Origin: Clostridia bacterium | Lineage (GTDB): Bacteria > Bacillota_A > Clostridia > Oscillospirales > CAG-272 | Direction: 5' to 3' | Assembly (NCBI GenBank): GCA_017408625.1 | Contig: JAFQUG010000359.1 | Coordinates: forward strand, 1 to 6,051 | Length of the DNA: 6,051 nucleotides | Shown here: in pieces, positions 3 to 6,051 of the stretch | Layout of the letters: the number at the start of each line of letters is the position of its first letter | How positions within the stretch are numbered: position 1 is the first letter of the stretch | Position numbers and translations under genes: made by a program | The notes under the pieces: model-generated | What the model was told of the DNA's origin: nothing | The model's input: the letters and a program-made list of their open reading frames with translations, nothing else | The model's database searches: none

Positions 3-1157
3 GATTATCAGCACGTTAAGCTGTCCAACGGTATGCTGCTTTGCTATGAGGTATACAGCATTCCGTATTATGCAAGCTACCGGGGCTTGAAGAACCTGAT
101 TGCATATTTCAATGATAATGATGATTTCTATGCATCGGTTTACACGCTGTCCATTCAGTATAATCCTGCGGATCAGTCGATCCAGGGCAACATGGTAATT
201 CTGCATTACTATCTGCTGGATGAAAACGCAGAGTACGTACCTCCCGTGATCGGCGAAGAGATCATTCCCGGTATCGACGGCATTTTCGGTGACGTGACCG
301 ATAACAATAAGCATCAGGGCAAGCAGAGCCCGTACACGGTTGACGACGTTAAGGGCTGGCTGGATGACGGCATGTCCTTCGAAGACGTTCGTGACAAGCT
401 CAAGAGTGAGGGCTATCCCGCAACCGAGTTTGCATGGATCATGAAGGAAGAGTATAAGACGCCCACCGAAATGCAGGCCTTCCTGGAGGAATACGGTGAA
501 GAAGGTGTTGAATACGACCTTGATTACGTGCTTGAGCTGCTTGAATGTGATCTGACTACGCTGATGGATATTTACTATGCAAAGGATCCCGGGGAGGATA
601 ACACGGGCGATGACAATACTCCCGATGATCCCGAGGAGGATACCACGGGCGGCGATACCCCCGATGATCCCGAGGAGGATACCACGGGCGGCGATACCCC
701 CGATGATCCCGAGGAGGAGACCACGGGCGGTGGAAATACCCCCGATGACCCCGAGGAGGAGACTACCACCGGCAGCAGCAAGCCGGTCGACCCCGAAGAG
801 GAGACTACCACCGGCAGCAGCAAGCCGGTCGACCCCGAAGAGGAGACTACCACCGGCGGCAGCAAGCCCCAGGGCGGCAAGCAGAGTGACTATACTGCCG
901 ATGAAATTGAGCAGATGCTGAAGCCTACCGGCACGAAGAGTCTGGAGCAGGTTCGCGACATGCTCAAGTCAAAGGGCTATCCTGCAACCGAGCTTGCGTG
1001 GATCCTCAAGGAAAAGTACAAGACGCGCGACGAGATCGAAATGTTCGTCATTTTCCGCGGCGAGGGCAAATATACCACGCTGGAGGATGCAACCGAGCTG
1101 TTTGAGTGCAGTGCGAACGAACTGAGATACATTTACGAATACGATATGGATCATTGA
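3..1157 (+). CDS. PilO-like type IV pilus assembly protein with repeat-rich C-terminal extension (5' end missing)
   Basis: The frame is open to the left edge, so the gene starts upstream; the ATG at 33 lies inside the domain and is probably not the start. 384 residues are visible. Residues 1-72 (motifs IPYYASYRGL, SIQYNPADQSIQG, MVILHYYL) fit the C-terminal ferredoxin-like part of PilO, which pairs with PilN and links the PilM/PilC platform to the pilus. A linker (73-105) follows, then a predicted helical module (106-193), an acidic D/E/P/T/G repeat linker (194-289), and a second module copy (292-384) ending at TGA 1155-1157. Ordinary PilO proteins end soon after the ferredoxin-like domain, so about 280 residues are extra. 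They should lie outside the membrane, perhaps within the cell wall. The PilO call rests on a short fragment plus the three pseudopilin genes downstream; another membrane-anchored pilus-platform protein is possible. I do not recognise the module family. Confidence 0.65.
   Translation, partial: DYQHVKLSNGMLLCYEVYSIPYYASYRGLKNLIAYFNDNDDFYASVYTLSIQYNPADQSIQGNMVILHYYLLDENAEYVPPVIGEEIIPGIDGIFGDVTDNNKHQGKQSPYTVDDVKGWLDDGMSFEDVRDKLKSEGYPATEFAWIMKEEYKTPTEMQAFLEEYGEEGVEYDLDYVLELLECDLTTLMDIYYAKDPGEDNTGDDNTPDDPEEDTTGGDTPDDPEEDTTGGDTPDDPEEETTGGGNTPDDPEEETTTGSSKPVDPEEETTTGSSKPVDPEEETTTGGSKPQGGKQSDYTADEIEQMLKPTGTKSLEQVRDMLKSKGYPATELAWILKEKYKTRDEIEMFVIFRGEGKYTTLEDATELFECSANELRYIYEYDMDH
318..581 (+). repeat. 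Helical module, copy A (internal duplication)
   Basis: First copy of a ~88-residue module in the PilO-like protein (residues 106-193). It begins GKQSPYT, has a core GYPATEFAWIMKEEYKT, and ends ELLEC...LMDIYYAKD. It lines up along its length with copy B at 876-1154. Charged and amphipathic spacing suggests mostly alpha helix. The lone cysteine (residue 182, codon 546-548) aligns with the lone cysteine of copy B. Confidence 0.85.
582..869 (+). repeat. In-frame tandem repeat, seven 39-42 bp units encoding an acidic linker
   Basis: Units start at 582 (degenerate), 624, 663, 702, 744, 786 and 828. The encoded consensus changes from DDPEEDTTGGDTP (13 residues) to VDPEEETTTGSSKP (14 residues). Units 624-662 and 663-701 are identical at the base level, and the last three differ by only a few bases. 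All lengths are multiples of three, so the frame is kept. The linker is Asp/Glu/Pro/Thr/Gly-rich, probably disordered and extended, and separates the two helical modules. The Thr and Ser residues could be glycosylated; that is inference. Confidence 0.95.
876..1154 (+). repeat. Helical module, copy B (internal duplication)
   Basis: Second copy of the module (residues 292-384), starting GKQSDYT, with core GYPATELAWILKEKYKT and ending ELFEC...LRYIYEYDMDH at the C terminus. It shares with copy A the patterns GKQSxYT, VRDxLKSxGYPATExAWIxKExYKT, ExxEC and a closing IY. The DNA has diverged clearly more than in the tandem linker, so the module duplication is probably older than the linker expansion. 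Confidence 0.85.
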
Positions 1158-1184: not shown

Positions 1185-1604
1185 ATGAGAAAGTTTTTGA
1201 AAAATCAAAAAGGCGTTACCATGATGGAAGTGTTGGTAACGGTTGCGCTGCTTGCAATCGTTGTCGTTCCGTGCCTTTCTTCCTTTATCATGGCGCAAAG
1301 CGGCAACGTCAAAGCCGCTGAGGTGACCAATGCTTATACCGAAGCCGCCAATTTGATGGAAGAGCTGAAGGGAATCGGCGAGGTTGACGAAGTCATCGCA
1401 CAATTAACCCCGAAGAAGGATGACCACGAGCAACTGCTGCCAAAGGAGTATAACGATACCATTTATGTTGTTTATCAAAATGCAGGTACGTACGTAACCG
1501 TATGGATCTTCCAAGGTAGTGCTGTAAATGCTGAATATGATAGTGAAAACGAAGCACAGCTTTCTAACGGAGAACTGCTTTTGAAAGGGGTGATCGCTCC
1601 ATGA
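1185..1604 (+). CDS. Type IV prepilin-like protein, PilV/GspI-like minor pilin
   Basis: The 139-residue product has a class III (prepilin) leader. A short basic leader MRKFLKNQKG ends in Gly10, where prepilin peptidase would cut. The mature end VTMMEVLVTVALLAIVVVP has Glu at +5 and a hydrophobic segment of about 20 residues that anchors the subunit in the membrane and later packs in the filament core. The following AEVTNAYTEAANLMEELKGI resembles the spine helix of PilV/GspI-type subunits, and the rest (about 60-139) is a small globular head. The length suits a minor rather than a major pilin. The stop overlaps the next start by four bases (ATGA 1601-1604), which suggests translational coupling. 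The prepilin assignment is firm; the PilV/GspI subtype is inferred from gene order and the spine pattern. Confidence 0.88.
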   Translation: MRKFLKNQKGVTMMEVLVTVALLAIVVVPCLSSFIMAQSGNVKAAEVTNAYTEAANLMEELKGIGEVDEVIAQLTPKKDDHEQLLPKEYNDTIYVVYQNAGTYVTVWIFQGSAVNAEYDSENEAQLSNGELLLKGVIAP

Positions 1605-1975
1605 CTAAGAGATTTATCAAGGATAATCGCGGTCAGGTGCTTTACGCAGTGATCGTTACGGTCATGTTTTTGGGCGTGCTTTCCATGATCGCCATGGGGC
1701 TGACCCTGCAGCATTACCATGCCTCCGTGCAAAAGCAAGAGCGCGTGAGCGACTATTATGCGGCGGATGCAGCAGCGGAGCTGTTGCGCATTGACCCTTC
1801 CAAGATCGTTAGTATTGAACAGGAGTGGAACGTTGATATTGGCGATCCTGTTACTGTTCAAGGCGCAACGCAATATACCATAAATAATGATACTGTGACA
1901 CTTGTTGTCGAGATTCAAAATGGAGAATTCACGAGCTGGGAGGTAAGCTATCATGCAAAACAACCGGCTGAGTAA
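1601..1975 (+). CDS. PilX/GspK-like pseudopilin lacking Glu+5
   Basis: A 124-residue protein with a prepilin-like leader ending DNRG (Gly11), then QVLYAVIVTVMFLGVLSMIA as the membrane helix. Position +5 after the presumed cut is Ala, not the usual Glu. Lack of Glu+5 is a known hallmark of GspK, which caps the tip of type II secretion pseudopili, and the start RGQxLxxVIV...L also resembles the PilX N-terminal family. The spine (SVQKQERVSDYYAADAAAELLRI) matches the YYAADAAAE pattern typical of PilX-like proteins. The head is small, far smaller than in GspK. The start at 1601 has AAAGGGG at 1584-1590, ten bases upstream, and overlaps the previous stop. The end overlaps the next gene by 23 bases. 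Pseudopilin class is likely; the exact subtype is uncertain. Confidence 0.78.
   Translation: MTKRFIKDNRGQVLYAVIVTVMFLGVLSMIAMGLTLQHYHASVQKQERVSDYYAADAAAELLRIDPSKIVSIEQEWNVDIGDPVTVQGATQYTINNDTVTLVVEIQNGEFTSWEVSYHAKQPAE
1939..1944 (+). promoter_or_regulatory. Strong Shine-Dalgarno site inside the preceding gene
   Basis: GGAGGT lies eight bases before ATG 1953, within the last codons of the PilX/GspK-like gene. It supports the 23-base gene overlap as real and the ATG at 1953 as the start. Confidence 0.85.
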
Positions 1976-2510
1976 GAATAACAAGGGCGTGACCCTTGTA
2001 GAAGTGATCGCGGTGATTGCGGTCTTGGGCGTGGTCATGGCGGCCGTAACAGGCTTTATGATAACAGGTACAAAAATGTCCGCCAAGGTCAGTAACGAGG
2101 CGGGAAGCAGTATGCGAGAGCAAACTGCGGTGGAATTTATTCAAAAGACGGTTTTGAGATACGGCTCTGCCTCTTTGAGAACAATCGAAGTAGTGCTCAA
2201 TGAAGAAGCAGAAGAAAAAGAGACTGTTTGGGCGTTGTTAATTATTCTTGCTACTGATGGTGGCCAAAGCTCCTGTGCGCTGATTACCGCAACCGAAGAT
2301 GAAAAGGTCGTTTATCAGCTTTGTACAGTGCCAATCTCGGAGGATGATGACGACATAGAATTTGGCGAATTGGATTTTGACGAAAGAGATCCCATTGAGC
2401 TTTGTTCGGGAAAGATCTCCTTCGAGCAGATTACGGACGACACCGTGATCTACGAATTGAATGGCGAAAAACACGTGGTGCATCTCAGAGTCGCTTCGCC
2501 CGGCTCGTGA
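1953..2510 (+). CDS. Type IV prepilin-like protein, PilW/GspJ/ComGF-like minor pilin
   Basis: The 185-residue protein has a basic leader MQNNRLSKNNKG (Gly12 at the predicted prepilin peptidase site), then VTLVEVIAVIAVLGVVMAAV with Glu at +5 and a hydrophobic helix. The spine region, with SSMREQTAVEFIQKTVLRYG followed by SASLRTIEVV, is like the PilW/GspJ/ComGF group, where a run of this type leads into a beta-rich head. The head (about 65-185) is acidic, with SEDDDDIEFGELDFDERD near residues 130-147, and holds three cysteines (in SSCALI, QLCTV, ELCSG) that might form a disulfide. It is the largest of the three pseudopilins, as GspJ/PilW-type subunits often are. It begins inside the previous gene and ends 28 bases before the large secreted protein. 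Prepilin identity is firm; the subtype is by pattern and gene order. Confidence 0.86.
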   Translation: MQNNRLSKNNKGVTLVEVIAVIAVLGVVMAAVTGFMITGTKMSAKVSNEAGSSMREQTAVEFIQKTVLRYGSASLRTIEVVLNEEAEEKETVWALLIILATDGGQSSCALITATEDEKVVYQLCTVPISEDDDDIEFGELDFDERDPIELCSGKISFEQITDDTVIYELNGEKHVVHLRVASPGS

Positions 2511-2538: not shown

Positions 2539-5500
2539 ATGAAAAAAATAGTTGTTTTCTTAACAGCTTGTTTACTGCTGATCGGAACTTTGGTGGGAAC
2601 AGCAGCTGCGGAAACCACACCCCGAGTAAGAAAAAAATACTCGGATCTGGATTACAGCATGGGCAGCACCAAGTCGGCAACCGTATATATGGGAGACGTG
2701 CTTGAACAGCTTTACGGTTACCAACTGACCGATGCAGAGAAGAACTTGATCCGATATAAGTTTGATGGGCAAAACGTTCTTTATTACAAGCGTCCTTCGA
2801 TCATTGATCCGCAGATCACGTACAATGGCGAAACACAGCAGTTGACCGTTATTCTGATGGACGACTATATTTACAACAGCAGATACGATTATGACATTTG
2901 CTGGACACCCTCGCGCGTTGTGATCAACGGAAAATCCGGAAAGTTTTCTCCTGCCCCCGACGTGGATGCAAACTATTTCCGCGCCACTGTGGAGGGCGTT
3001 GCATGGAGCAGCAACGTGCTGATGACGGTTGAGTACACCTCGCAGTTCACCATTTCTGCGGATACGCTCAACGATTTTGTCAATTTTGCTTACGATACCG
3101 CAGTTTCCTTGGATGGGGAGTACGCGATCTACCAATCCTCGCTGGAGCAATATAATCTCAAGCTGGATGAGTACAATGAAAACCAGATCGAATGGACGAG
3201 ATATCAGGCCGAGCTGGATGCATACCGTGACCATCAGTATCAAGAGGCATTGTACGCAGATTATCTGCTTTATCAGCAGTACCTGGCAGAAATGAAGGTA
3301 TATAATCAAGCTTATGCCGATTATACCGATAATCAAAAGGAATGGGCTACCTATTACGAGAATTGCAGCAAGTTCGAGCAATACATGAAATACAAAGAGC
3401 AGTATCCTACCCTGTATGCCGAATATCAGAATGAGATGGCCACGGTCAATCACCACCTGGGTCTGCTTGCGCTGATGGAGGTCAAGGATCCCGTGACCGG
3501 TTTTTCGTTTATTGAGACTGTTTTGGACGACCGCGTCGGTCAGGTGATTGCTGAGAAAAAGGCAGAGCTCTCTGCCCTTGAGGGAAGTGCTGTGGACAAC
3601 GTGGTAGCAGCAACGCCCGTATTGCAGAAATTTTTCACCACCTATCGCTCACTGAGCACCGATCAGGAGAGATACGAGTTTTACATCAAGGAGTATTCCT
3701 CCTTTGTCAAGCATCTCAAGATGCTCTACGACGGTATCAATAAGCTTTATAAAAACGGCCCGATCTATAACACGCTGCGCAAGGATTATCCCGATTACGT
3801 TGACTCCTTGGTGCGCATGCTTGGCTTGCTTTACGTCAACAACTGTAGCTTTAACGATAATATGACCATGAACCTGAACTACGAGGTGGATTATCACGGT
3901 CATAAAAAGGCAAAGGATCTGGTGGACGCTTCGCTGCGCCCTGCATCCGATACCAACAAAGCAAAGCCCCTTAGTGCATGGCCGAAGCCGCCCCAGCATC
4001 CTTCCGAATGCGAGGTTACCAGTCTGCCCACCAGACCCACCCAGACTCTGCCTGAGCCTACTAAGCCCCCTCTGCCCGAGTTTGGCGTAGTCACGTCTAT
4101 TGAAGAGTTCCCGACAAACATGCAGGATCCCGGCACCATGGAAGAGCCGACCGAGCCTTCCTTGTACGTGCCGCACCCCGGTACGCCGCCTTCCTTGCCT
4201 TGGGATTCCACCTATCAGAGCCTCTATGAGGCGTATTTGCGCGGAGAAATCGTGCAAAGAGCCCCGTTTGGCACTGCACAGACGGTTACGCTGACCGCTG
4301 CAGCCAATCATACGGCAACCCTTGACGAGGACGAGCATTATTATTACATTTACTTCTATAACAGTGACGAGGCTAAAACGTATATTGGCTACGATGCCGT
4401 GCGTTACGGTGAATCAGGCGCATATCCCGAGGATTTGCCCGTGCCCACCAAGCAACCCGTCAATGAGATCGCTTATGCCTTTGACCACTGGGTCTACGAG
4501 AACGGAGAGCCGGCTGATCTGAGTATGATCACCTCGGACGTTGAGGTGTTTGCTGCTTATAAGATCGTGCCCCGACAGTGTACCGTGACGTGGGACGTGG
4601 GCGGCAAGCTGATCGAAACACTGTGGTATTACGGAGAAACCCCCATATTTACAGGATCGACCGATCGAGAACCGTCCCTGCAATACATTTATACGTTTGC
4701 AGGATGGGATAAGGAGATCACAACAGTCAAGGAGGACGTCGTCTATACAGCACAGTATTCCACCGTGCTGAACAGACATAAGGTCACCTTTGTGATGGGC
4801 GACGGTACGTTGATCGAGAAGGTTTACGATTACGGAAAGAATCTGGGTGAGGCCGTGCCGCTGCAAACGCCGGTCAAGGCACCCACCGCACAGTATTCGT
4901 ACGTATTCAAGGGTTGGAAGGACGACCGAGGAAATCTGTACCGAACGCCGTCTGAGTTTCCGACGCTCTCAGGACCTGTCACCTTTACCGCTGAATTTGA
5001 GCCGGTGCTCAATGAGTATACCGTCACTTGGGTCGTAGAAGAGCAAACCTTCCGGCAGACCTACAAATACGGTGAAATCCCCGTATTCGGAGATGCTCCC
5101 GGTGCCGTACCCACCAAACCCTCGACGCTGCAGCATGATTACGTGTTCCGCGATTGGAGTTCCAAGATTGGAGCAGTGGTAGGGGACGTAACGTACGTTG
5201 CACAGTTTGACGAGGTCACGCGACAGTATATGATCACGTTTATCGTGGACGGTAAGGAATTCGTATATCCTCATGCATACGGTGATACGCCCGTATGTAA
5301 GAAGCCTCCCGAAAAAACTCCTACGGTAGAGCATGAATTTATCTTTGCCGGTTGGGATAGAGAGCTTGAGCCCGTCACCGAGGAGACGACCTACGTGGCG
5401 CGCTTTGATACAACGCCGAGAAAGCACCCCATTACGTTTTTGCTTGGAAAGGAAGAGGTCGTGCTGGAATTTGAGTATGGCACTGTTCCCGTATATCCGA

Positions 5501-6051
5501 GCAGAAAGCCCACGATTGCAGATGACAGCCGCTATTATTACGTATTTACGGGTTGGGACAGACCCTTTACCGAGGTAGACGGACAACCGACTACCTATAC
5601 CGCTTACTTTGACGCATTTCCTCTTGCACCTGTCAAGGATGGGGAGGATGGCGTTCTGTCGATCAGCCCGGACGGGAAATACGTCTTATATGTGGACGGC
5701 AGTATCGTCGATATTTCCAGAGTGATGGACAAGGCGGGCGAGAACGGTGCAGCACTGCTGCAGGTGCACTTTGGCAAGGCCATTGTGGAATTCCCCAAGG
5801 AGCAGGTCGATGCTTTCTACAATATGAGCGGTGCGATCTACGAGGTAAGATTGGCATGCGTGCCATATGAAGGTCGCATTTCGTATCAGTTGGAGCTGTT
5901 GGACGCGAACGGATTTCCCGTACAGTTCTTGATGACTGAGCTGATCCTCAAGCTGCCTTATCAAGGGGCATACTCTGCTGACGTGTATTGCGTCGGGGAA
6001 GACGGTGCGCTCAAAAAGATGGAGGCAGAGCATATTGATGGGCATCTTGTA
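2539..6051 (+). CDS. Large secreted multidomain protein with InlB-type B repeats, candidate pilus-associated adhesin (3' end missing)
   Basis: The frame is open for 1171 codons to the right edge, so the C terminus is missing. Residues 1-24 form a Sec signal peptide (MKK, hydrophobic LLLIGTLVG, likely cut after GTAAA). After it come an uncharacterised, apparently beta-rich region (about 35-190), a tyrosine-rich helical rod (195-297), a second helical region (about 330-465), a proline-rich stretch (475-554), six B repeats of the Listeria-Bacteroides/Flg_new type (about 600-1028), and the start of a C-terminal beta domain (1029 on). B-repeat proteins are usually exported surface or adhesive proteins. 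No catalytic motif is visible, nor LPXTG or SLH in the part seen. Its place right after three minor pilins matches where PilY1 adhesins sit in other T4P operons, so a tip or surface adhesin exported with the pilus is plausible. This role is inference; the domains are visible. Confidence 0.85.
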   Translation, partial: MKKIVVFLTACLLLIGTLVGTAAAETTPRVRKKYSDLDYSMGSTKSATVYMGDVLEQLYGYQLTDAEKNLIRYKFDGQNVLYYKRPSIIDPQITYNGETQQLTVILMDDYIYNSRYDYDICWTPSRVVINGKSGKFSPAPDVDANYFRATVEGVAWSSNVLMTVEYTSQFTISADTLNDFVNFAYDTAVSLDGEYAIYQSSLEQYNLKLDEYNENQIEWTRYQAELDAYRDHQYQEALYADYLLYQQYLAEMKVYNQAYADYTDNQKEWATYYENCSKFEQYMKYKEQYPTLYAEYQNEMATVNHHLGLLALMEVKDPVTGFSFIETVLDDRVGQVIAEKKAELSALEGSAVDNVVAATPVLQKFFTTYRSLSTDQERYEFYIKEYSSFVKHLKMLYDGINKLYKNGPIYNTLRKDYPDYVDSLVRMLGLLYVNNCSFNDNMTMNLNYEVDYHGHKKAKDLVDASLRPASDTNKAKPLSAWPKPPQHPSECEVTSLPTRPTQTLPEPTKPPLPEFGVVTSIEEFPTNMQDPGTMEEPTEPSLYVPHPGTPPSLPWDSTYQSLYEAYLRGEIVQRAPFGTAQTVTLTAAANHTATLDEDEHYYYIYFYNSDEAKTYIGYDAVRYGESGAYPEDLPVPTKQPVNEIAYAFDHWVYENGEPADLSMITSDVEVFAAYKIVPRQCTVTWDVGGKLIETLWYYGETPIFTGSTDREPSLQYIYTFAGWDKEITTVKEDVVYTAQYSTVLNRHKVTFVMGDGTLIEKVYDYGKNLGEAVPLQTPVKAPTAQYSYVFKGWKDDRGNLYRTPSEFPTLSGPVTFTAEFEPVLNEYTVTWVVEEQTFRQTYKYGEIPVFGDAPGAVPTKPSTLQHDYVFRDWSSKIGAVVGDVTYVAQFDEVTRQYMITFIVDGKEFVYPHAYGDTPVCKKPPEKTPTVEHEFIFAGWDRELEPVTEETTYVARFDTTPRKHPITFLLGKEEVVLEFEYGTVPVYPSRKPTIADDSRYYYVFTGWDRPFTEVDGQPTTYTAYFDAFPLAPVKDGEDGVLSISPDGKYVLYVDGSIVDISRVMDKAGENGAALLQVHFGKAIVEFPKEQVDAFYNMSGAIYEVRLACVPYEGRISYQLELLDANGFPVQFLMTELILKLPYQGAYSADVYCVGEDGALKKMEAEHIDGHLV
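3121..3429 (+). other. Tyrosine-rich predicted coiled-coil rod (residues 195-297)
   Basis: This segment holds 21 tyrosines in about 102 residues plus two tryptophans, with Gln, Glu, Asp, Lys and Ala between them. Aromatic residues recur at spacings of 3, 4 and 7, and glycine and proline are almost absent until a YPTLY near residue 290. This is the pattern of a long amphipathic helix whose core is aromatic rather than leucine. The helix call is by eye. Confidence 0.7.
3961..4200 (+). other. Proline-rich linker (residues 475-554)
   Basis: 21 of 80 residues are proline, in patterns such as PKPPQHP, LPEPTKPPLP and HPGTPPSLP, with few hydrophobic residues. It is likely an extended, polyproline-like or disordered spacer between the helical stalk and the B-repeat array. 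Unlike the linker in the PilO-like gene, it is not a regular tandem repeat. Confidence 0.8.
4336..5622 (+). repeat. Six InlB B-type (Listeria-Bacteroides/Flg_new) protein repeats
   Basis: Approximate units are 4336-4575, 4576-4773, 4774-5013, 5014-5220, 5221-5418 and 5419-5622 (66-80 residues each). Each has the family pattern: VTW/ITF opening strand, central YG(E/D/K/T), a proline-containing loop, then YxYxFxGW (FAGWD, FKGWK, FRDWS, FAGWD, FTGWD) and a closing T(Y/F)xA(Q/E/R/Y)(F/Y). The first unit is divergent (FDHWVYENGEP). The fold is known in internalin B and related proteins as a beta-grasp-like module. Units share motifs but are well diverged at the DNA level, so the array is old and stable. 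Confidence 0.88.
5623..6051 (+). other. Start of a C-terminal beta domain, cut by the window edge
   Basis: Residues 1029-1171 leave the B-repeat pattern. The region includes SPDGKYVLYVDGS, LQVHFGKAIVEFPKEQVDAF, SYQLELLDANG, ELILKLPYQGAYSADVYCVGEDG and AEHIDGHLV. This layout (a strand carrying a side chain set, a constructed-polarity strand with LKLPY, then a 'value of the model' strand ending in a DGHLV-like turn) resembles the beta domain found before the C-terminal anchor in many Bacillota surface proteins. There, the next residues usually read like F-x-T-x-H-F-S. That continuation lies outside the window. The family match is by memory of the pattern only. Confidence 0.5.

Follow-up and report, generated by a model that had tools for sequence, protein, structure and literature searches.

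The window, that is, the whole 6,051-nucleotide stretch of DNA from a Clostridia bacterium that was analysed, carries on one strand (+) a PilO-like gene, three minor-pilin genes and the gene of a large exported protein, in this order. The PilO-like gene, which is absent from an earlier note on this DNA, is present with its 3' part (3..1157, +), its 5' end lying off the contig, and encodes a putative PilO-like domain followed by helical repeats and acidic linkers. The first minor prepilin is PilV/GspI/ComGE-like (1185..1604, +; KG^VTMMEV) and matches PF07963 above the cut-off (E 2.7e-6), as well as TIGR02523 and NF041013, both below it. The second, PilX/GspK/ComGG-like and without Glu5 (1601..1975, +), shares 4 nt with the gene before it, and its resemblance to ComGG (NF041014, E 2.1e-5) stays below the cut-off. 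The third is PilW/GspJ-like (1953..2510, +; KG^VTLVEV) and, as the first, passes the PF07963 cut-off (E 1.9e-7). In the PilW-like family, for which 128 proteins were found and 120 of these listed, PF07963 is recovered in all 12 aligned proteins. The gene of the large protein (2539..6051, +) begins with an ATG at 2539, 28 nt past the end of the last prepilin ORF and with GGAGG ahead of it, and runs off the end of the window. The three pseudopilin genes in V/X/W-like order followed by a large protein, as described in the earlier note, are thus confirmed. The 1171 residues encoded in the window are identical to the start of P0001, the full protein of 1298 aa; the C-terminus lies outside the DNA that the earlier note had in view.

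The large protein starts with a putative signal sequence (residues 1-25, boundary approximate, from hydropathy only; 2539..2613, +) and an Ig-like beta domain (residues 26-172; 2614..3054, +). It continues with a Tyr-heptad alpha helix of about 130 residues (183-312; 3085..3474, +; block pLDDT 88-92 in AF2), a helical tip domain predicted by the AF2 model (residues 313-465; 3475..3933, +) and a proline-rich stretch (residues 466-556; 3934..4206, +), which we read as an antiparallel polyproline-II helix from its proline spacing, the AF2 model and indels. A strand at residues 581-594 (4279..4320, +) seems to complete the N-terminal Ig-like domain according to DSSP of the AF2 model; among the 50 matches listed, aligned ranges that start in this domain, recorded as first and last residue only, stop at model residue 569-578. 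Six InlB-type B-repeat units follow (residues 600-1026; 4336..5616, +), in agreement with the earlier count, each with an FxxW motif (residues 648, 720, 790, 870, 936 and 1003) and with PF09479 matched in relatives. The window ends within a C-terminal domain, delimited from P0001 (residues 1027-1171; 5617..6051, +). The remainder of this domain, a PF18998 domain, a hydrophobic helix and a basic tail lie beyond it. In Pfam, the window part matches PF18998 alone and below the cut-off; full-length P0001 passes the cut-off at residues 1189-1260. Among 25 family members, PF18998 is found in all and PF09479 in 10 (E<=0.01).

What the earlier note called a helical rod and a Pro-rich spacer look like the two strands of a single antiparallel alpha-helix/polyproline-II stalk resembling that of antigen I/II, a reading supported by prediction and covariation. 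The AF2 model has a mean pLDDT of 87 and a pTM of 0.45, so that its domain placement is uncertain. The Pro-rich character of the second strand stands, its role as a spacer does not: the model predicts order (block pLDDT 83-90) with little regular secondary structure, not a floppy linker. Gaps between conserved aromatics in the helix are 7 or 3 in 16 of 20 cases, and gaps between conserved prolines are 3 in 5 of 13 and a multiple of 3 in 9 of 13. Moreover, the region contains 17-27 prolines in all 11 rows of alignment A3, which includes distant relatives. In alignment A1 (25 proteins), the five sequences with a 7-residue deletion in the helix are all also deleted in the Pro strand, by 3 residues in four of them and by 2 in P0026, although the idea of a 7:3 exchange was taken from the very alignment used for the count. 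The converse, a Pro-strand deletion without a helix deletion, occurs in none of the other 20, once single-residue gaps and a bulge deletion of 7 residues are left out. The latter is present in P0019-P0021, whose helix is unchanged despite this loss, and also in P0024; beyond the co-deletion, P0024 is set apart from these three sisters by not a single indel of at least 2 residues after residue 26. Fisher's test on hand-supplied counts that ignore kinship gives p 1.9e-5 for the co-deletion. On a tree there are four co-deletion events, and four length-weighted throws hit the same four branches in 35 of 2,000,000 trials (analytic probability 1.4e-5). The paired positions run antiparallel: helix 294-301 with Pro 482-486, 200-206 with 548-550 and 254-260 with 508-509. 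Not every case follows the pattern: P0026 has a second helix deletion, of 4 residues, without a second partner in the Pro strand, in L068 a change of 7 goes with one of 2, next to small insertions, and P0031 shows no clean 7:3 fit.

In streptococcal antigen I/II proteins (SpaP, SspB, BspA), a helix with Tyr heptads interlocks with a PxxP strand, a tip domain lies between the two, an N-terminal domain precedes the stalk and globular domains follow it, as described in PMC7732690. The large protein appears to share this order, with the Tyr-heptad helix before the predicted tip and the PxxP strand after it, the pairing being supported by the indels. It differs in that its tip is predicted to be helical instead of a beta-type V-domain, in having B-repeats in place of C-domains and a transmembrane-like anchor in place of LPXTG, and in being encoded in a pilus operon. 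No antigen I/II chain is among the PDB matches of the large protein, and no antigen I/II family is among the 12 Pfam families matched at E<=10 by 11 members, HMMER filters dropping most weak matches in such a search. An exchange of seven helix residues against about three Pro-strand residues at antiparallel positions suggests itself as an evolutionary signature, with which sequence data could be screened for alpha/polyproline-II stalks that escape antigen I/II models.

We found 25 further clusters related to P0001 at 41-56% identity, which gives a family of 26 members; the lengths of the 25 proteins aligned (P0001-P0026 except P0023) are 1276-1311 aa. A C-terminal hydrophobic helix with a basic tail is present in all 26 proteins by reading and in four of four by hydropathy. 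From sequence, this anchor looks like a transmembrane helix, and it has the opposite topology to that of a pilin; the short basic tail could be an unrecognised sorting signal. None of the 26 proteins has an LPXTG-like motif in its last 60 residues, and no SLH or sortase signature was found in the large protein. The transmembrane-like look of the anchor speaks against the C-terminal sortase or SLH anchor considered in the earlier note. PF07963, the class III prepilin signal, is matched by 0 of 25 family members, which suggests that the large protein is not polymerised as a pilin. Searches of sets of 391, 398, 396, 295, 245 and 229 genomes recovered no member of the close family at the thresholds applied. 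Of these sets, the 245 genomes appear to overlap the 391 to a large extent (the draws are apparently nested), the search of 396 at E<=1e-80 was too strict to reveal distant homologues, and that of 398 scored at most two candidates per genome, so that its count is at least 8 of 398 genomes. Matches on viral contigs were rejected, having the B-repeats alone in common with the query (in one set, none of the 19 starts before query residue 533). Further matches in the genome searches were set aside on the same ground, loci L001 and L063 having been read and the remainder judged by match range. A single-sequence query of genome contigs returned an unrelated B-repeat protein as its sole match.

The link to pilus genes recurs among close relatives. 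In 13 of the 25 other clusters, 44-56% identical to the large protein, the contig is exactly as long as that of a PilW- or PilO-like relative, a matching done with the longest contig of each cluster only and for which chance coincidence is negligible by hand estimate. The association is therefore not confined to the source contig, and the possibility, raised in the earlier note, that it occurs in this genome only can be dismissed. The other 12 clusters, of which six have contigs 34-75 kb long, lack the link on this criterion, and among 23 other PilO-like clusters, 19 have no link to the large protein. Distant relatives occur in nine genomes, with 20-25% identity in the eight that were aligned. 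Seven of these nine genomes have no prepilin match, and none of the nine contigs carries one; several of the distant homologues adjoin rpoC- or ABC-transporter-like genes (identified by reading), and six of eight adjoin another protein of 1.5-2.0 kaa. Occurrence without type IV pilus genes, which the earlier note had named as evidence against its proposal if widespread, is thus true of distant relatives, in seven of the nine genomes found. Finally, distances among PilW-like proteins correlate with those among large proteins at a Mantel r of only 0.44 (12 pairs), a value reached in 70 of 10000 permutations. The distant relatives, the unlinked close clusters and this correlation would fit an ordinary adhesin that sits at the 3' end of the operon by chance and is functionally unconnected to the pilus. 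Against this speak the 13 linked clusters and, at the source locus, the shared strand and the 28-nt gap, and we consider it rather unlikely.

The earlier note had pointed to the position of pilY1 and proposed a non-homologous tip or surface adhesin. The large protein resembles PilY1/PilC in being large, Sec-exported by its signal-like N-terminus and encoded directly after the three minor-pilin genes, repeatedly in company with pilus genes. As PilY1 and minor pilins prime the pilus in Myxococcus (PMC7541494), it might replace PilY1 functionally by docking on the minor pilins, priming the pilus and being carried out at its tip. However, no PilY1 or vWA family is matched by any of the 25 family members (Pfam, E<=0.01), as the earlier note had said of the beta-propeller and vWA signatures, and all 26 proteins have the hydrophobic anchor, while PilY1 is described as soluble (PMC7541494). 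Together with the anchor topology and with distant relatives whose genomes lack a prepilin match, this makes a PilY1 replacement very improbable. The proposal is supported as regards a surface protein that is linked to a type IV pilus operon and lacks homology to PilY1; a location at the pilus tip finds no support.

Other adhesins offer partial parallels. The modular pilins PilB and PilC of Streptococcus sanguinis are likewise adhesins, belonging to the type IV pilus of a monoderm (PMC8179133), with a class III signal that finds no match in the large protein. InlB B-repeat and fibrillar adhesin-like proteins share the B-repeats as well as a stalk whose N-terminus is distal and whose C-terminus is anchored (PMC8286594); they differ from the large protein, which has a Tyr-helix/Pro stalk and a pilus linkage. 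The tapirin model NF051896 matches neither the large protein (E<=1) nor the 25 aligned members (E<=0.01). Tapirins of Caldicellulosiruptor are non-PilY1 attachment proteins encoded at a Firmicute type IV pilus locus. Their role in attachment is described in PMC9933333. Among the papers listed in searches of open-access literature, none has a title or opening abstract text that describes a 7:3 residue exchange, an antigen-I/II-like stalk in Clostridia or a pilus-linked counterpart to it, a monoderm tip adhesin of this type, or B-repeats with type IV pili.

On balance, we favour the reading that the large protein is a membrane-anchored fibrillar adhesin with an antigen I/II-like stalk, expressed from a monoderm's type IVa pilus operon. 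Rather than capping the pilus, it probably extends across the cell wall so as to take hold of something. From the membrane outward, the order would be a basic cytoplasmic tail, one transmembrane helix, the PF18998 domain, the C-terminal domain, the six B-repeats as an inner shaft, the Ig-like domain and a stalk of about 20 nm, in which the 130-residue Tyr-heptad helix would run out to the helical tip and the polyproline-II strand return alongside. Such a rod could carry the tip across the wall to hold a surface, a polymer or another cell, and with co-expression of the pilus, retraction might bring the target within its reach. We infer adhesion, a ligand and cooperation with the pilus; searches with the large protein gave no match to a ligand or adhesive domain. 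An antigen-I/II-type stalk may even have arisen or been retained outside the streptococci and joined a monoderm type IV pilus, as a body-anchored rod for retracted cargo or as a dock that spans the wall and receives the pilus tip, which we regard as an unlikely extension. The large protein is thus a candidate for a recurrent non-pilin partner of monoderm type IV pili, from a little-known lineage. A 2019 review (PMC6916266) counts both the adhesion of these pili and their passage through peptidoglycan among the questions still to be answered.

The same review suggests that an enlarged PilO might help the pilus to cross monoderm peptidoglycan. With an enlarged PilO-like gene in the same operon and the modelled rod geometry, the anchored rod and the PilO-like protein could position the filament through the wall as a guide or collar. 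The same type of protein is, however, present in genomes without prepilin matches, and we hold this to be highly improbable. Relatives of the PilO-like protein measure 403-669 aa, and six of six show no match to the PilO families of Pfam. In Foldseek, the model of one relative, P0164 (pLDDT only 56), has as its top match the PilO chain of 3jc8 (E 5.5e-4), followed by 2rjz and then 5uvr.

On the forward strand of the window, a PilO-like gene (3-1157, 5' end missing) is followed by V/I-like (1185-1604), X/K-like (1601-1975) and W/J-like (1953-2510) prepilin genes and by the large gene, which runs from the ATG at 2539, preceded by GGAGG, to the window end; successive intergenic gaps are 27, -4, -23 and 28 nt. 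This confirms the V/X/W-like order before a large exported protein described in the earlier note. The first and third prepilin genes match PF07963 above the cut-off, whereas the X/K-like product lacks Glu5 and its ComGG-like match lies below the cut-off. By our own pattern, the class III motif occurs in all 120 W-like proteins listed (at least 120 of the 128 found). The window is probably an entire contig, since the longest contig of a cluster identical to the first ORF measures exactly 6051 bases. The complete large gene, on an 11,064-base contig, encodes a 1298-residue protein (P0001), to which the window's 1171 residues are identical.

In four longer relatives of the PilO-like protein, and in a weak model of one of them, a hydrophobic helix and a coiled coil accompany a PilO-like segment, with additional helices at the C-terminus. 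Foldseek ranks the PilO chain of the type IVa pilus machine first for this model (E 5.5e-4; model pLDDT 56), a phage connector chain second and P. aeruginosa PilO third (E 1.2e-3). Because of this pLDDT, the PilO identity of the first ORF is a lead, not proof. Passages of PMC6916266 report an enlarged PilO in monoderm pili. The window's PilO-like protein (3-1157) also contains two similar helical repeats of the YTxDxI/V...EQVRDxLKSxGYPxTELxWILKxKY type, joined by an acidic PDPEE/TTGG linker.

A protein search with the large protein returned 34 proteins, of which 26, including the window's own, are of the same type (P0001-P0026; P0023 is a 980-residue form). The remaining eight, mostly repeat matches but also a distant relative (P0031), were left uncounted. 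Nineteen IMG/VR contigs (L044-L062) encode B-repeat proteins whose matches are confined to the repeat part of the large-protein family. Neighbouring genes were not directly given by the search, and linkage was read from identical sizes of the clusters' longest contigs. By this proxy, 11 of the 25 other large-protein clusters have a longest contig exactly as large as that of a W-like cluster (24507, 57576, 5730, 72968, 7976, 18206, 36342, 43955, 20756, 33414 and 14822 bases) and two further ones match PilO-like clusters (8786 and 8970 bases), making 13 of 25 pilus-linked clusters, 44-56% identical to the window protein. The large gene leaves less than 1.9 kb on the 5730-base contig, and the W-like gene must therefore be close. 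Among the matches listed, no link is seen for 12 of the 25 clusters, six of them on 34-75 kb contigs; of 23 other PilO-like clusters, four are linked to the large protein and 19 show no link. Since the word-based search misses relatives near 45% identity and only listed matches are covered, we read the unlinked clusters as uninformative; they are also compatible with a true absence of pilus genes. W-like and large-protein distances correlate moderately (r 0.44, 12 pairs; 70 of 10000 permutations as high).

All 26 C-termini have a conserved stretch near VEGGT..EV, then a single hydrophobic helix with a basic tail behind it, and none of the 26 proteins has an LPXTG-like motif in its last 60 residues. 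Hydropathy profiles of four proteins place hydrophobic stretches only at the N- and C-terminus; judged by sequence, the orientation would be type I, opposite to that of pilins. None of 25 members matches PilY1, von Willebrand A, sortase-anchor or SLH families at E<=0.01. The earlier claim of no PilY1 or von Willebrand A signature thus stands, and the sortase or SLH anchor that the same note had named as speaking against its proposal is not what these searches found. PilY1 identity was rejected on this result and the C-terminal hydrophobic helix, and modular pilin identity on the domain search of 25 members.

In the predicted model of residues 26-640 (mean pLDDT 87, pTM 0.45), a beta domain comes first, followed by one helix of 130 residues (183-312) and a helical domain that reaches ~438. 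The Pro-rich stretch has little regular secondary structure, yet its block pLDDT is 83-90, and a strand lies at 581-594. In 50 VIA-align rows, for which only the first and last aligned residues are given, the alignments begin N-terminally and stop at model residue 569-578, i.e. at this strand, which suggests a single long hairpin, made up of helix, tip and Pro region, as an insertion in an Ig-like domain. The previously proposed helical rod and Pro-rich spacer would belong to a single structure, in which the spacer is modelled as ordered. Gaps between conserved helix aromatics are 7 or 3 in 16 of 20 cases, and those between conserved prolines 3 in 5 of 13 and a multiple of 3 in 9 of 13. At the textbook rises of 1.5 Å per alpha residue and 3.1 Å per polyproline-II residue, hand arithmetic gives ~195 Å for 130 helix residues and ~200 Å for ~65 Pro-strand residues, although a close-family bulge near 517-530 need not be extended.

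If helix and Pro strand (466-556) pair antiparallel, loss of 7 helix residues (10.5 Å) should be matched by loss of the ~3 Pro-strand residues (9.3 Å) that face them. In the 25-protein alignment, a small sample with gaps as placed by the aligner and the one from which the 7:3 hypothesis arose (first cases were noticed before the systematic count), seven helix residues are missing from five sequences, all of which also have a Pro-strand deletion, of three residues in four and of two in P0026. No Pro-strand deletion is seen in the 20 others once 1-residue gaps are disregarded, along with a bulge deletion of 7 residues common to P0019, P0020, P0021 and P0024. With the helix and Pro columns left out of the tree, the losses map to four events (P0016+P0022, P0024, P0025 and P0026), and four length-weighted throws reach the same branches in 35 of 2,000,000 trials. 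The deletions are mirrored: helix 294-301 with Pro 482-486 (two events), 200-206 with 548-550, and 254-260 with 508-509. In the distant group, L040 pairs 7 (202-208) with 3 residues (545-547), plus single-residue changes, and L068 pairs 7 (212-218) with 2 (549-550) and has small insertions as well. A further helix deletion in P0026, of 4 residues, is without a Pro-strand match, and P0031 gives no clean fit to the exchange. P0024 served as a control: beyond residue 26, no other indel of at least 2 residues separates it from its sisters; P0025 and P0026 have others.

In antigen I/II stalks, according to PMC7732690, Tyr heptads interlock with PxxP motifs. The stalk of the large protein, with its Tyr-heptad helix and Pro strand, seems to work alike, but the protein has neither a Pfam or PDB sequence match nor an LPXTG, its tip is predicted to be helical, and it fails antigen I/II membership. 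The best-supported reading is a membrane-anchored stalk adhesin of the pilus operon. Attachment proteins of an unrelated kind have a precedent at the pilus locus of a Firmicute, the tapirins. The pilus-tip role proposed in the earlier note is unlikely, given the C-terminal anchor in 26 of 26 proteins and distant relatives whose genomes mostly show no N_methyl match.

These relatives, 20-25% identical to the window protein (eight aligned), share a similar N-terminal half and are encoded in at least eight of 398 genomes of one family (G781, G780, G498, G565, G593, G591, G322 and G580) and in G235. An N-terminal profile built from eight of the nine scores all nine at E<=1.0e-164. N_methyl matches occur in two of the nine genomes, whose completeness is not stated, and never on the large gene's contig; these two also give strong T2SSE ATPase matches, with a weak partial match above the cut-off in G580 and one below it in G591. 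By our own reading of nine neighbourhoods, including that in G235, rpoC-like or ABC-transporter-like genes lie upstream of several relatives, and in six of eight regions a second protein of 1.5-2.0 kaa with a signal-like start is encoded downstream. On these results, a pilus seems dispensable for this type of large protein.

Examples of the second large proteins are L036 12582-17258, with MBG_3 above the cut-off, and L042 966-6596. Five contigs of G565 (C2, C12, C15, C19 and C52) carry prepilin motifs within open frames of 719-1620 residues, whose sequences suggest very large modular pilins. At a contig end, an open frame with a Tyr-heptad helix (L069 1205-3142) matches the N-terminal profile over positions 176-289 (E 6.9e-10) and may be a further stalk protein.
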